Source: a marine gamma proteobacterium HTCC2089
GTDB lineage: Bacteria; Pseudomonadota; Gammaproteobacteria; Pseudomonadales; Azotimanducaceae
DNA length: 48,120 bases
Reading direction: 5' to 3'
Assembly (NCBI GenBank): GCA_905182905.1
Contig: CAJJDH010000033.1
Span: forward strand, 1-48,120
Shown here: one piece after another, positions 17,211 through 24,464 of the stretch
How the letters are laid out: each line of letters opens with the position of its first letter
Position numbering within the stretch: position 1 is the first letter of the stretch
Made by a program: the position numbers and the translations under genes
Notes under the pieces: model-generated
The model's database searches: none
Seen by the model: only the letters and a program-made list of their open reading frames with translations
Told to the model about the DNA's origin: nothing

Positions 17211-18131
17211 ATGCTGATAGGCAAATCCCCGAAAATACCCACATCAGAAATCATTTCGGAAACTACGTATCTCAATCGGAGAAAGTTTCTGGGTCAGAGT
17301 ACTGCCCTTATCGCTGGGTCTAGTCTATTAGGTTCTGCGAATGCCGGCCTGCAGCCCGACGATGAAATTACTCCAGAAGATATTGTTACTCAGTTCAATA
17401 ATTTTTATGAGTTTGGCACGGATAAAAGTGATCCGTATGAAAATGCTCATACCCTGACTACAGATCCATGGACTGTAACCGTGTCAGGAGCAGCAAAAAA
17501 GACCGGTGAATTTGCCTTTGAAGATATTATCAAGGGCATGACTGCGGAAGAGCGCATTTATAGATTTCGCTGTGTAGAAGCGTGGTCCATGGTGGTGCCG
17601 TGGATGGGTATTGAGTTAAAGAAAATTCTTGAGCAATTTGAGCCCACGGGCGACGCCAAATATGTGGAGTTCAAAACTTTGGTTCGTCCAGAGGAGATGC
17701 CGGGTCAGAGGTCCTTTTTTTCGAGCATAGATTGGCCTTACGTGGAAGGTCTGCGTATGGATGAGGCCTACAATCCATTGAGCATTATGGTAACCGGCTT
17801 ATTTGGTAAAGAGCTGCCCAACCAAAATGGTGCGCCTTGGCGATTAATGGTGCCGTGGAAATATGGGTTCAAGAGCGTTAAATCTATTGTCAGTATTCAT
17901 TTCACAGACAAACAACCATTAAATACATGGCAACAATTGCAGGCCAGCGAATATGGGTTTTATGCGAACGTTAATCCTGCTGTTTCTCATCCGCGCTGGA
18001 GCCAAGCCAGTGAAAGACGTTTGCCTAGTACGCTCTTCAATACTAACCGTCGGCCCACGTTACCATTTAACGGCTATGCGGAAGAGGTTGCTCACCTTTA
18101 TAAAGGCATGGATCTGAAAAAGTTCTACTAG
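17211..18131 (+). CDS. msrP: Protein-methionine-sulfoxide reductase catalytic subunit MsrP
   Basis: Periplasmic molybdoenzyme that repairs oxidised methionine in envelope proteins, receiving electrons from MsrQ. The 306-residue protein has a Tat signal (NRRKFLGQSTALIAGSSLLGSANA, residues about 22-45), and RFRCVEAWSMVVPWMG with the cysteine that ligates molybdenum; GAPWRLMVPWKYGFKSVKSI follows near residue 205. Length is typical. msrQ follows after 43 bases. Cofactor synthesis would use MoaB, encoded at 28.5 kb in this window. The region upstream carries the 15-bp array. Confidence 0.96.
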   Translation: MLIGKSPKIPTSEIISETTYLNRRKFLGQSTALIAGSSLLGSANAGLQPDDEITPEDIVTQFNNFYEFGTDKSDPYENAHTLTTDPWTVTVSGAAKKTGEFAFEDIIKGMTAEERIYRFRCVEAWSMVVPWMGIELKKILEQFEPTGDAKYVEFKTLVRPEEMPGQRSFFSSIDWPYVEGLRMDEAYNPLSIMVTGLFGKELPNQNGAPWRLMVPWKYGFKSVKSIVSIHFTDKQPLNTWQQLQASEYGFYANVNPAVSHPRWSQASERRLPSTLFNTNRRPTLPFNGYAEEVAHLYKGMDLKKFY

Positions 18132-18174
18132 TGGCGTTTTGATTAGTATGGATATTCGGTTTGAGGCCTAAACA

Positions 18175-18807
18175 GTGACGGTAGCGAAAAAGCCCAATAA
18201 TAGGCTTAAGCTTGTCTTGGCGTTACTCGCTACTGCGCCTGCCCTCTGGCTTGCATATCTCATTAGTCAGGAAATTTCCCTGCCTACCTCAGGGTTAGGT
18301 CCTGACCCAGCTGAGGGACTCCTCCATTATCTTGGCGACTGGTCTATGATCGCCTTACTTGTTGCGTTCAGCGTTACACCTTTGAGGCGAATATTTAAGC
18401 AGCCAATGTTGGCGCGAAGTCGCCGTATGCTTGGGTTATTTGCGTTTTTCTACGTGGCCTTGCACCTAGCTACCTATATTGTCCTTTACGTGGAATCTTC
18501 CTGGCAGTTGTTGGTTGCTGATTTTGTTGAGCGCACCTACATCACAGCGGGTATTGCAGGTTTCTTTGGCCTCGTCGCTATGGCGGTGACTTCAACTAAA
18601 GGCTGGCGTCGACGGCTGGGGCAAAACTGGCTGCGTTTGCATAAAGTGATTTACCTGGTTATCCCATTAGCGCTACTGCATTTGATTTGGCTGAGGAAAG
18701 ACGGTTTTGGGGATATCGCCCTGTATATTCTTTGGTTTTCAATATTACTGGGCGAGCGTATCTATCAAGCTAGAAAGCCTAGGGCTGCGTTAACCAAGGG
18801 ATTGTAA
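18175..18807 (+). CDS. msrQ: Heme-binding membrane subunit MsrQ
   Basis: Inner-membrane b-type heme protein that passes electrons from the quinone pool or flavins to MsrP. The 210-residue product has about six hydrophobic segments, the conserved LHYLGDWSMIALLVAFSVTPLRR near the start, histidines within membrane segments (VALHLATYI, LHKVIYLVIPLALLHLIWL) and the family string GWRRRLGQNWLRLHKVIYL (residues about 142-160). Translation starts at GTG. It follows msrP closely, as in other gammaproteobacteria. Confidence 0.93.
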   Translation: MTVAKKPNNRLKLVLALLATAPALWLAYLISQEISLPTSGLGPDPAEGLLHYLGDWSMIALLVAFSVTPLRRIFKQPMLARSRRMLGLFAFFYVALHLATYIVLYVESSWQLLVADFVERTYITAGIAGFFGLVAMAVTSTKGWRRRLGQNWLRLHKVIYLVIPLALLHLIWLRKDGFGDIALYILWFSILLGERIYQARKPRAALTKGL

Positions 18808-19641: not shown

Positions 19642-20127
19642 ATGAAGTTGCTCCACAGACCTATGCTGGACACTGATGTGGCTGAAGTCTTAGTCATTGA
19701 GAATGTTGCTCACCTTAACCCTTGGAATGAAAGTGCTTTTGTAGATTGCATTGCCGCTCGCGCTAAAGGCTATGCCTGTCATTTGATTTTACATGAAACG
19801 CGAATTGTGGGTTATACGGTACTCAGCGCTGCTGTGGGAGAAGCTCACTTACTGAACATTACCGTTGACCCTGAATGTCAGGGGCAGGGGTTGGGTCGGC
19901 GATTGCTGAGGTGGGTAATCGTTTGGAGTTTGAGCCAGAGTGTCCAGACACTCTTCTTGGAAGTGCGTTCAGGTAACCTCGCTGCGCTGACTCTGTATGA
20001 ATCTGCCGGGTTTAAACGAATTGGCTTGCGTCGAGATTACTATCCGTCTTTATTGGGTAGAGAAGATGCAGTAGTTATGGGTTTAGATCTGGCCCAGATA
20101 ACTATAAATGAAAGCGGCGAAATCTAG
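19642..20127 (+). CDS. rimI: Ribosomal protein S18-alanine N-acetyltransferase (RimI)
   Basis: GNAT-family enzyme that acetylates the N-terminal alanine of S18 using acetyl-CoA. The 161-residue protein has the GNAT core: EAHLLNITVDPECQGQGLGRRLL (motif A, acetyl-CoA pyrophosphate loop) and LEVRSGNLAALTLYESAGFKRIGLRRDYY, which matches the RimI C-terminus. The ATG directly follows the stop of the HolD-like gene with no gap, so translation is probably coupled. A hairpin at 20164-20187 follows. Confidence 0.93.
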   Translation: MKLLHRPMLDTDVAEVLVIENVAHLNPWNESAFVDCIAARAKGYACHLILHETRIVGYTVLSAAVGEAHLLNITVDPECQGQGLGRRLLRWVIVWSLSQSVQTLFLEVRSGNLAALTLYESAGFKRIGLRRDYYPSLLGREDAVVMGLDLAQITINESGEI

Positions 20128-20163: not shown

Positions 20164-20190
20164 ACAGCAGTATTGCTAGCCTGCTGTTTA
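20164..20190 (+). terminator. Candidate terminator after rimI
   Basis: ACAGCAG (20164-20170) and CTGCTGT (20181-20187) form a 7-bp stem with a 10-base loop, followed by TTAGTTAT. It abuts the stop codon of the convergent hvfC-like gene and could serve the rimI transcript. Confidence 0.5.
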
Positions 20191-20967
20191 GTTATGAATT
20201 GCGCTTACAATGCCTTTGGCAAACCAAGATTTGATAATGGTGATGAGCGTTACAGCAACCGAGTTTTCTTCGACTCTTGTGACTAAAAACTCACACAGTT
20301 CGGCTAAGTTCTGACCTTCCAAAGAGTACTTTAGTAGTTTGGCTTCTAAATCAGTCATTGATTTGAATTCAGTGAGTCGCGCGGAGTTTCTCCACACTAA
20401 CCAATAACTTGTACTTTCGACGGGCTCGGGTGGCTGCTTTTGCTCTCGAATGGCCTGCCAGATCTCTACGACATTCCATCGACTGGTGAATATTTGCATA
20501 CTCGGATGGAAGCGTAAGGCTGTATTGGGCCAATCTTCCTCCGCTAGGTTAACAAGGTCTTGGCTGGGTAATCTAATGGCATCGGAAGCGTCGAAGGCGG
20601 ACATTAACAGACGCTCAAATCTTGCCAGTTCAGTTATTTGTGCGTGTTGCCGGAAAGGTTCCGTTTGGGCTAGAAAACTCGGTAGCTGGTCAGCAAAATG
20701 GCGTAGCGAAGTATTTTGCGACGGGTGCTTTTTAACGTATTCGGCAGTCATAAGATCGAATAGTTCATCGCCTAAATAAGTGCCGATAACAGGGTGGTCT
20801 ACCTCAATTGATTCGCGGAGCCGCATTTGATACGCGTTGCGGTAGATGCCTAAGCGGGCGTTGGTATTTATTCCGCCTTGGCTCGCAATATATCCGCTAA
20901 TGTTATTTTGCTGATCACGCAGATATGCCATCAATTGTTTTTGCTGTTCTTGTAATATTTGCGGCAC
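20188..20967 (-). CDS. HvfC/BufC-like RiPP maturation partner (DUF2063)
   Basis: In bufferin and HvfA systems the DUF2063 protein partners the MNIO enzyme and helps it bind and modify the precursor. The 259-residue product has the family N-terminal domain (ARLGIYRNAYQMRLRESIEVDHPVIGTYLGDELFDLMTAEYVKKHPSQNTSLRHFADQLPSFL region, about residues 38-105) and a less conserved C-terminal half. It starts with GTG two bases after the stop of the MNIO gene, so the two are almost certainly co-translated. No DoxX-like fourth gene follows; the operon ends against rimI. Confidence 0.87.
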   Translation of the reverse strand: MPQILQEQQKQLMAYLRDQQNNISGYIASQGGINTNARLGIYRNAYQMRLRESIEVDHPVIGTYLGDELFDLMTAEYVKKHPSQNTSLRHFADQLPSFLAQTEPFRQHAQITELARFERLLMSAFDASDAIRLPSQDLVNLAEEDWPNTALRFHPSMQIFTSRWNVVEIWQAIREQKQPPEPVESTSYWLVWRNSARLTEFKSMTDLEAKLLKYSLEGQNLAELCEFLVTRVEENSVAVTLITIIKSWFAKGIVSAIHN

Positions 20968-20969
20968 GG

Positions 20970-21893
20970 CTAGGGTGACAGTTTTTCAACAGGAAAGCCC
21001 TGTTTGGCAACGGCTCTAGCGACATCAAGTTCAGAAACTAAATCCTTCAGCGCCGGTATGTTGTCGTCGCGCTCTATCATAGTGCTAACGGGGCCAAAGC
21101 GGTCAATAGCTTTAGCGTAAAGATCCCAAACGGACTCAACAACGTCATGGTCATGGGTATCTATTACGTAGTCACCGTAATCTGTGTGCCCTGCAAGATG
21201 GAACTGCCAGACTCTCGAAGGATCTATGCCATTTAGATAATCTTCCGTATTAAATCCGTGATTGCGCGCGCTTACGTAGATGTTGTTTAGATCAAGTAAA
21301 ATCAAGCAGTCAGATTTTTCTGCTACTGCCGACAAAAATTCCCACTCAGTAACTTCTGAGTCTTTGTATGTAAGGTAGCTGGAAACATTTTCTATAAGTA
21401 TTTGTTGGCCAAGAAAGTCTTGGGTTGCACAGATGCGGGCGCTCACATGATCTAGGGCTTCTTGGGTGTAGGGTAGAGGTAATAGATCATGGCTGTTGAT
21501 TCCGCCTTGTTGGGTCCAACATAGGTGGTCGGATAACCATGCGGGTTGAACTTCATGCGCAAGCGTTTTGAGGCTGCGCAGATAGTCAAAATTGATAGGG
21601 TCCGTAGAGCCGATAGAAAGCGAAACACCGTGCATAACCAAGGGATAGCGTTCGCGAATTTTGTGTAGGTAATATTTGGGCTTGCCTCCCGACACCATAA
21701 AATTTTCTGATATGACCTCAAACCAGTCGACCTCTGGTTGAGTGTCGATGACCTCTTGGAAATGTTCAGTGCGTAAGCCAAGGCCAAAGCCAAGATAGGG
21801 TCTATCTTGACTTTTTCCCTCGGCAGAAACTCTAGCGGTAGCCATTGTCGTATAGCTATCGCTTGAAGACACAGGGCTAGTATTATGCGCCAA
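20970..21893 (-). CDS. MNIO-family RiPP maturase (DUF692, BufB/HvfB-like)
   Basis: Multinuclear non-heme iron oxidative enzyme predicted to convert cysteines of the upstream precursor into oxazolone/thioamide or thiooxazole groups. It has a TIM-barrel-like fold with metal-ligand candidates in family motifs: WFEVISENF (Glu59, Glu63), MHGVSLSIG (His88), SDHLCW (Asp122, His123), IENVSSYL (Glu168, Asn169), [14 protein letters not shown] (Asp201, Asn204), FHLAGH (His232, His236), DTHDHDV (His247), MIERDDNIP (Glu274). The 307-residue frame starts with TTG inside the last codons of the precursor gene; an ATG at residue 17 (21845) gives 291 residues, nearer the usual length. Neither start has a strong ribosome binding site. 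Confidence 0.93.
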
Positions 21894-22347
21894 CCTTGCC
21901 GCCGATATCTGCGCAAGCTTTCGCTGGAGCCGCTATAAAACCTTGGCCCTTACATGCGGCCTGACCTTTACAGGCGTTACCTGCGGTCTTGCAATCGTTA
22001 TGGCCTTTACAAACGTTAGTGCCATAACAATGGGATAAGTCAGCGGTAGAGATGCTTCCGGTCCAATCATCTCTACGTTCGCCACCAACGTCTGCACAAG
22101 CTTTCGAGGGTAGAGCAACGACGCCTTGACCTTTACATGCACCTTGGCCCTTACAGGCGTTGCTCGCGGTTTTGCAGTCGTTGTGCCCGTTGCACGCGTT
22201 CACGCCGTAGCAGTGAACCAAGTCAGTTGTATTACTTGCCGCGCTAGTGTTGGTAGAAGAAGGTCCAGATGTTTCACATCCCATCAGCCCTGCGGCTGCT
22301 ACAGCCAACGCAATACCGGTAAACTTAGTTTTCATTTGTGTGTTCAT
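21883..22347 (-). CDS. Tandem-domain bufferin precursor (BufA2-like RiPP)
   Basis: Predicted exported, metal-binding RiPP precursor of the bufferin type, a family linked to copper buffering. The 154-residue product has a signal sequence (1-23) with LMGC at 21-24, a possible lipobox, then a Ser/Thr/Asn-rich linker and two homologous core domains: 42-89 and 103-150, 37 of 48 positions identical by my count. Each domain has six cysteines at equal spacing (46, 52, 58, 65, 71, 84; 107, 113, 119, 126, 132, 145) in the family pattern [30 protein letters not shown] precedes the ATG. Its last codons overlap the maturase frame. The single-core form is what I know of the family, so the duplication is the oddity. 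Confidence 0.9.
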
Positions 22348-22360
22348 AGTTATCGTCCTT

Positions 22361-22408
22361 CTATCTATTTAGATGTCCATTCACATGTCTATTCATATGT
22401 CTATTCAT
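22361..22408 (-). CDS. Possible 15-codon leader peptide of MNRH repeats (also a 12-bp tandem repeat)
   Basis: The DNA is four tandem 12-bp units (two perfect ATGAATAGACAT, then GTGAATGGACAT, then CTAAATAGATAG). In one frame it reads as a complete mini-[18 protein letters not shown] followed by TAG, and the AAGGA ribosome binding site of the bufferin precursor begins right after that stop. This could be a histidine-containing leader coupled to the precursor. It lacks a strong ribosome binding site of its own, and repeat arrays are common between genes here, so it may be only a minisatellite. Confidence 0.35.
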
Positions 22409-22889: not shown

Positions 22890-24464
22890 TTGAGTATTGA
22901 GCATGTTAAGAATAGACGCACCTTTGCGATCATTTCCCACCCAGATGCGGGTAAAACCACAATAACTGAAAAACTACTGCTTTTTGGTAACGCTATTAAG
23001 CTAGCGGGTACGGTGAAATCCAGAAAATCAGACCGCCATGCAACGTCTGACTGGATGACCATGGAGCAAGAGCGCGGCATTTCGGTGACGACGTCTGTAA
23101 TGCAGTTTCCCTATGAGGGGCGCACGGTCAATTTGCTTGACACACCTGGGCACGAAGATTTTTCAGAAGATACCTATCGAACACTCACCGCCGTGGACTC
23201 GGCGCTAATGGTTATTGACGGAGCCAAAGGTGTAGAGCCGCGAACTATTAAGCTTATGGAAGTGTGTCGCCTGCGTGATACGCCAATCGTCACGTTCATT
23301 AACAAGTTGGATAGAGAAATTCGTGATCCAATTGAAGTGCTAGACGAAGTTGAAGATATTCTACAAATCCAATGCGCGCCGATGAATTGGCCCATTGGCA
23401 TGGGGCAGCACTTTAAGGGAATTTACCAATTAGCAGAGGATCGCATTGTTTGTTTTGCTAAGAGCCAAGGCCATCATATTTATCCATATAAGGTCATTGA
23501 GGGCTTAGAGAGTGATGAGGCAAAAGAGTATCTAGGTACTGAGCACGCCGACTACGTTGATGAAATAGAGTTGGTTCGCGGCGCTAGTCACGAATACGAT
23601 CAGGCGGATTTTGAGAGCGGTATGGTCAGTCCCGTTTACTTCGGTACTGCGCTAGGTAACTTCGGCGTTAAACAAATGCTCGATGGTTTTGTCCAGCAAG
23701 CACCTGCGCCTCAGCCGAGAATGACTCAATTGCGTGAAGTTTTGCCGTCCGAGGAAAAGTTCAGTGGTTTTGTCTTCAAAATTCAGGCGAATATGGACCC
23801 CAAACACAGAGACCGCATTGCCTTTATGCGGGTTTGTTCGGGCACGTATCGTCAGGGTATGAAAATGCGCCACCTACGTACCAATAAGGATATTAAGATT
23901 GCCGATGCTGTGACCTTTATGGCCGGCGACAGAGTGCATACCGAGGAAGCCTTCGCGGGCGATATTATTGGATTGCATAATCACGGCACTATTCAGATTG
24001 GTGATGCTTTCTCTGAAGGTGAGAAACACGAATTTATTGGTATTCCCAATTTTGCTCCAGAGATGTTTCGGCGTGTTAGGGTGAAAGATCCGTTACGCGG
24101 AAAGCAGCTAGAGAAGGGGGTTAAGCAGTTAGCCGAAGAAGGTGCCACTCAAGCCTTTATCCCCTTGTCCAAGAACGAAATTGTAGTGGGTGCGGTAGGG
24201 GTGTTGCAGTTTGATTTGGTCTCATTCCGTTTGCGAGATGAATACAGAGCGGAGTGTATTTGGGAGAACTCAACTATCTTTACTGCGCGCTGGATACAGT
24301 GTGAAGACGAAAAAATGCTCGCGGATTTCCGTAACAAAAACCAAGAGAACCTTGCCATAGATGGTGGCGGGTATCTGACCTATCTAGCAACAAGCAGAGT
24401 TAACCTCAGCGTTATACAAGACCGCTGGCCAGATATTAACTTTAGCAAAACGCGTGAGCACTAA
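22890..24464 (+). CDS. prfC: Peptide chain release factor 3
   Basis: Ribosome-dependent GTPase that recycles RF1 and RF2 after termination. The 524-residue protein has the G domain motifs [15 protein letters not shown] (P-loop), [12 protein letters not shown] (switch I), [14 protein letters not shown] (switch II) and NKLDRE, followed by the beta-barrel domain II and the RF3-specific C-terminal domain. Length is normal. The start codon is TTG with AGGAAAG nine bases upstream; the frame has no better ATG before the conserved residues. Confidence 0.97.

Follow-up and report, generated by a model that had tools for sequence, protein, structure and literature searches.

A BufA2-type bufferin precursor with two six-cysteine cores in a marine gammaproteobacterium

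The stretch of DNA analyzed here (the window, 48,120 nucleotides) encodes a BufA2 bufferin precursor with two cores in a single chain. We consider it about 85% probable that this precursor belongs to the 12-Cys Buf2/BufA2 bufferins already known and that, encoded in a bufA2-bufB-bufC operon, it is modified by BufB and serves as a copper-binding envelope lipoprotein. The two-core design has already been described and is not new in kind. The initial annotation located the two cores correctly and described them well, but it assumed a single core per bufferin precursor, which is wrong: in a family survey published in 2025, 90% of Buf2 precursors, earlier named Buf_6/12Cys, possess 6 conserved Cys and the other ∼10% possess 12, and the modelled 12-Cys member, Cognaticolwellia aestuarii WP_077285100, has duplicated 6-Cys domains (PMC12452194). 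This is the kind of result by which the initial annotation itself would have its claim refuted, a family survey with two-core BufA2 precursors as a common form. The two-core form of BufA2 is well established in many marine Gammaproteobacteria; our survey adds, modestly, a shared clade of duplicated cores, a fixed 61-residue spacing, frequent lipobox patterns within the lineage, and a Lys after the fourth core Cys that most of the 78 two-core members have lost.

Results

Architecture of the precursor

The precursor gene (positions 21883..22347, minus strand) begins with ATG and encodes 154 amino acids. In an NCBIfam profile search, the protein scored 141.1 bits against NF050166 (Cu_RiPP_BufA2; cut-off 60) in two stretches, and a six-frame search of the genome returned the two stretches with E-values of 2.8e-22 and 3.3e-19, which bears out the proposed BufA2-type identity and the presence of two complete cores. 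Pfam gave for the precursor a sub-threshold match to DUF7640 only (16.1 versus 28.1 bits).

Cysteines occur at positions 24, 46, 52, 58, 65, 71, 84, 107, 113, 119, 126, 132, and 145, so that the six core Cys (46–84) are repeated (107–145) with equal spacing and an offset of exactly 61 residues. Each core thus has the six conserved Cys of BufA2/Buf2, 12 in the duplicated form. Core 1 comprises residues 42–89 (22081..22224, minus strand) and core 2 residues 103–150 (21898..22041, minus strand). As the initial annotation had counted, 37 of these 48 residues are identical. When core 2 was shuffled 100,000 times, identities with core 1 averaged 4.7 and never exceeded 15, and BLASTP aligned the real cores with 77% identity (E 6e-33). 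The 14-letter framework that had been pointed out is found in both copies. The four central Cys are followed by Asn, Lys, Lys, and Lys in core 1 and by Lys throughout in core 2.

The cores are joined by a 13-residue linker (22042..22080, minus strand) with a D-x-W-x-G motif. Asp-93, Trp-95, and Gly-97 are invariant in six of six aligned two-core proteins; across 38 such proteins, Gly-97 remains invariant, and Asp-93 and Trp-95 are almost so. An AlphaFold2 model (38 two-core sequences as input; pTM 0.54, mean pLDDT 65.2) places a strand at residues 90–100 in the linker and shows a core framework that recurs, with strand 76–79 and helix 81–86 in core 1 and strand 137–140 and helix 142–147 in core 2. 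The Cys-rich loops are modelled with low confidence, so the geometry of a metal site is not readable from the model. Among solved structures, no chain matched the precursor profile at E 0.1; BufB matched DUF692/MbnB chains.

The remaining, 13th cysteine of the precursor, Cys-24, lies outside both cores and had gone unmentioned in the initial annotation. It ends a hydrophobic stretch with the lipobox pattern LMG-C, and residues 1–24 (22276..22347, minus strand) are predicted, by sequence pattern only, to form a Sec/lipoprotein signal peptide with Cys-24 as the lipidation site. Lipoprotein signals are reported for about 16% of Buf2 precursors (PMC12452194), and some bufferins with such signals are also described in PMC12636315. 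Immediately upstream of bufA2, at 22364–22408, lies a 12-base tandem repeat (3.8 copies), which by eye is absent upstream of bufA2 in the congeners compared.

Operon and neighboring genes

The precursor gene is adjacent to a BufB-type MNIO gene and a gene for a DUF2063 partner protein, the arrangement known for BufA2/Buf2. The maturase gene bufB (20970..21893, minus strand) encodes 307 amino acids from a TTG start and matches NF050167 (MNIO_BufB; 382.7 bits, cut-off 310) and PF05114 (371.6 bits). An alternative start is an internal ATG at codon 17, 16 codons past the TTG. If BufB begins at the TTG at 21893, its gene overlaps bufA2 by 11 bases. Two bases further on follows the bufC-like gene (20188..20967, minus strand), whose 259-residue product matches PF09836 with 70.3 bits (cut-off 27.2) and NF050145 (HvfC) with 72.9 bits, under the cut-off of 142.

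The operon is flanked by plus-strand genes for an acetyltransferase (19642–20127) and RF3 (22890–24464). Between 20000 and 23000 there is one promoter-like site, on the other strand, versus 4.7 expected, and there are four terminator-like sites versus 2.7 expected. A phmmer search of the window for DoxX-like ORFs was negative. Searches of viral contigs and plasmids gave no sign of a mobile origin: the viral contigs yielded 24 pattern matches and no relatives, and the plasmid search yielded 17 records, of which one, a 1.24-Mb Pseudoalteromonas record, spans 80% or more of the query and the other 16 span 59–68% in two pieces.

On the opposite strand, ∼1.4 kb past bufC, a molybdopterin oxidoreductase gene (PF00174) and a ferric-reductase-like membrane gene (PF01794) span 17211–18807. 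We take this pair to be MsrPQ. Molybdopterin oxidoreductase and ferric-reductase-like domains are reported from a few EGKCG clusters (PMC12452194).

Distribution of two-core precursors

The BufA2 model matched in 10 of 58 relatives at E 0.001, and seven passed the cut-off. Within the genus, five of 37 genomes (that of the window included) have BufA2, in all five cases as a two-core protein with two stretches in one frame. Two genomes from other families of the order also passed, one with a two-core (G047) and one with a single-core precursor (G037). In the class-wide sample, 70 of 370 genomes passed the cut-off. The 60 regions extracted from it were the listed places over the cut-off without a locus; in this sample, two-core precursors were the window's own and that of G179, and in G355 and G364 the core was expanded from within. 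Phylum-wide, 35 of 397 genomes passed, with two-core precursors in the window's own genome, G179, G639, and G691.

The family-search loci comprise 134 distinct proteins with the core profile, a count that leaves out four weak DUF2282-like matches and over-represents close relatives: 124 are single-core, eight two-core, and two expanded. Scanning a named genome collection with the two-core alignment returned 172 confirmed relatives. The best 80 of the 172 are all two-core by the core profile; the scan was seeded with two-core proteins, so this indicates a widespread design and gives no frequency. These 80 include Shewanella, Colwellia, Cognaticolwellia (C. aestuarii, locus L083, among them), Pseudoalteromonas, Paraglaciecola, Microbulbifer, and many metagenome-assembled genomes. 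The nearest of the 80, an uncultured Pseudomonadales bacterium and a K189A-clade bacterium, are 87% identical and share their upstream stretches with L005 and L007, two loci of the same genus as the window.

In two loci, L184 (minus strand, frame 1227) and L174 (plus strand, frame 1972), a BufA2-like core is expanded internally by extra Cys-Lys units, which is another route to more Cys than duplication of a whole core. Both loci also carry single-core precursors.

We then considered all two-core sequences together as a set of 78 distinct proteins, 72 of them from the scan of the named collection (best 80 of 172 relatives). The spacing between the cores is 61 residues in 77 of 78 and 62 in the other. 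Six Cys occupy both cores in 77 of 78 proteins, one protein having a seventh Cys in core 1. A BufB-like gene lies on the same strand at 77 of 78 loci and a DUF2063-partner-like gene at 74. Of 116 single-core loci, 93 have this type of maturase gene and 90 this type of partner gene. Single-core precursors share the core and the family model with the two-core proteins, from which they differ in having one core.

The two groups also differ in the lipobox pattern, present in 64 of 78 two-core but 15 of 124 single-core precursors (7 of 8 versus 15 of 124 in the family-search set alone), although these counts are not independent because the two-core proteins are one lineage. The 14 two-core precursors without the pattern (L062, L073, L078, L106, L108, L111, L113, L115, L116, L117, L122, L124, L125, and L129) are mostly from Shewanella or Parashewanella. 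Their existence suggests that soluble and lipidated forms of the two-core protein may both occur. With one query and flanks of unequal length, DoxX-like ORFs turned up in the neighborhood of 9 of 78 two-core loci and of 2 of 116 single-core ones. By phmmer, locus L083 has such an ORF in its flanks; it differs from the window in this respect and in sequence, but resembles it in the duplicated six-Cys core, the lipobox pattern LMGC, and the adjacent BufB-like gene.

Evolution of the two cores

A tree of 64 cores from 32 two-core proteins and 46 single cores (identity-thinned, 51 columns) places all two-core cores in one clade, together with a single one of the 46 single cores (L034), with support of 99/96. 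Within this clade, first and second cores (D1 and D2) intermix, with 17 and 16 changes; the inner forks are unsure because columns are few and bootstraps unsettled.

Purifying selection acts on both cores, more loosely on core 2 than on core 1. In the window, the cores share 34 of 45 aligned residues but only 14 of those 34 with the same codon. Relative to congener L005, core 1 has 22 synonymous codon differences and one replacement, and core 2 has 21 and four; relative to L006, the figures are 25 and one for core 1 and 18 and four for core 2. The earlier impression that both copies are under selection was therefore correct. The accompanying idea that the first copy had drifted more is not supported, since core 1 is the more conserved one, both against two congeners (44 of 45 residues versus 41 of 45 for core 2) and across the 78 two-core proteins (mean identity 0.769 among D1 and 0.735 among D2). 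Asn-53, which had been cited as drift, is common to three aligned congeners; the change unique to the window in that alignment is Val-76.

The central part of the cores (columns 3–31) co-varies between the two cores of a protein. Among 41 non-redundant proteins, the mean kappa is 0.36, and the observed agreement of 0.850 (0.762 after shuffling) was reached in none of 1000 shuffles, which ignore kinship. Co-variation in the C-terminal part is slight (kappa 0.08; 32 of 1000 shuffles), and here the cores differ from each other, column 38 being equal in 10 of 78 proteins and column 44 in five.

It is most unlikely that the cores are alike merely through recent duplication or continuing gene conversion, without an enduring role as a pair. 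Mean identity is higher between the two cores of one protein (0.802) than between a D1 and a D2 from different proteins (0.728), as such an origin would predict, and the intermixing of D1 and D2 in the tree points the same way. So does the rate of identical codons at shared residues in the central part (0.569 versus 0.515 expected). The corresponding C-terminal rate is 0.509 versus 0.522 expected; with codon rates slightly above expectation, and in the central part only, shared selection explains most of the likeness, and some gene conversion is possible. For the window itself we reject recent duplication, since identical codons at shared residues (14 of 34) are no commoner than expected and lie under the codon-use baseline of 0.48. 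The distinct C-terminal columns and a spacing fixed across many genera also argue for two cores that are lastingly maintained.

Lysines next to the core cysteines

Lysines that follow the core Cys are retained to different degrees (a single core and a first core whose Cys count is not exactly six are omitted). A Lys follows the second core Cys in 116 of 123 single cores but in 37 of 77 first and 48 of 78 second cores of two-core proteins. It follows the fourth in 94 of 123 single cores versus 20 of 77 first and 19 of 78 second cores. The Lys after the third Cys (75 of 123, 68 of 77, and 73 of 78, respectively) and that after the fifth (112 of 123, 72 of 77, and 73 of 78) are mostly kept in two-core proteins. 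Most of the 78 two-core members have thus lost the Lys after the fourth core Cys, although BufB2-Asp251 is proposed to contact the substrate Lys (PMC13097082).

We considered that Cys-Lys motifs might be fewer where the presumed site in BufB is Ala or Gly. This was rejected: of eight possible motifs, a mean of 5.30 is present with Asp (n = 53), 5.73 with Ala (n = 11), and 5.00 with Gly (n = 7), and Asp versus Ala plus Gly gave p 0.77 in a Mann-Whitney test that ignores kinship and covers all but seven of the 78 two-core loci.

Proposed function

By analogy with its relatives, the precursor would be handled as follows. The DUF2063 partner would present it to BufB, which would convert Cys-52, Cys-58, Cys-65, and Cys-71 of core 1 and Cys-113, Cys-119, Cys-126, and Cys-132 of core 2 into thiooxazole-type heterocycles, with a loss of ∼4 Da per Cys. 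MNIOs together with a DUF2063 partner are reported to install thiooxazoles, seven in the case of fontiphorin (PMC13097082). The authors of the bufferin survey state, in a passage that mentions vibrioides Buf2, that they had yet to identify the modification of Buf2 (PMC12452194). In core 1, Cys-52 is followed by Asn instead of Lys, so this site may be a poorer one. The outer pairs Cys-46/Cys-84 and Cys-107/Cys-145 probably form disulfides after export, as in Buf1, where the outer Cys sit in a disulfide (PMC12452194). The peptide would be exported by Sec, lipidated on Cys-24, and held in the envelope, where it may bind surplus copper. Two cores of one lineage, locked at a 61-residue spacing and both kept by selection, would then approximately double the binding sites per anchor.

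Modification of both cores has a parallel in MmrA, in which 8, 16, and 24 H are lost with one, two, and three cassettes and each cassette is modified (PMC12538549). Alternatively, only one core might be modified and bind metal, the other being an unmodified structural or leader-like domain that holds the substrate on the maturase. The missing Lys after the second Cys of core 1 could be read in this way, and the related maturase FonBC acted on a substrate with two repeats but not on one with a single repeat (PMC13097082), which suggests that neighboring repeats can matter for recognition. We nevertheless judge this quite unlikely, since all 78 two-core proteins retain the six Cys in each core, purifying selection acts on both, and the Lys after the third and fifth Cys are largely kept in either core. 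The co-variation of their central parts, kinship being ignored in the shuffling, is also what would be expected if one enzyme reads both.

A further, rather doubtful idea is that the cores do not act as two independent copies but form a membrane-tethered cooperative unit, paired round shared copper. The fixed 61-residue register, the conserved D-x-W-x-G linker with its modelled strand, and the central co-variation would then all stem from such pairing.

As such, the three-gene operon gives no verdict on copper versus another metal. It is improbable, though not negligibly so, that the product, instead of buffering copper, serves to bind or sense a different metal or an oxidant. MerC-Buf2 fusions hint at mercury (PMC12452194), the oxidoreductase/ferric-reductase-like pair lies past bufC, and a copper role is unclear for the mmr cluster, to which the authors are hesitant to assign copper protection (PMC12538549). 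Against this, periplasmic copper sequestration is reported for bufferins (PMC12452194), and bulbicupramide binds Cu(I), with no appreciable binding of Fe(III), Ni, Zn, or Mn (PMC12538549). A copper-binding role thus remains our preferred reading.

A second system in the same genome

The EGKCG/oxazolin precursors HvfA, FonA, and MmrA resemble the window's precursor in being served by an MNIO and a DUF2063 partner and in offering several modifiable Cys per chain. They differ in their short Lys-Cys repeats, which stand where BufA2 has six-Cys cores, and in belonging with a different MNIO group. The genome of the window also carries a precursor of this EGKCG/HvfA type on contig C3 (locus L219, 1064–3732), with five double-repeat matches and with its own MNIO, HvfC, and DoxX-type HvfX genes.

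The two maturases of this genome differ in a motif that probably corresponds to the FonB 249–250 site, BufB reading ERDDNIP and the HvfB-type MNIO ERDFNIP. In the Cys-Lys MNIO group, Asp is reported to replace FonB-Phe250, adjacent to the catalytic Asp (PMC13097082). As expected, the contrast fits the stated difference between Cys-Lys and Lys-Cys MNIOs, provided that the site is placed correctly. Two copper-RiPP systems that differ at the presumed specificity site of their maturases thus appear to coexist in the genome of the window.
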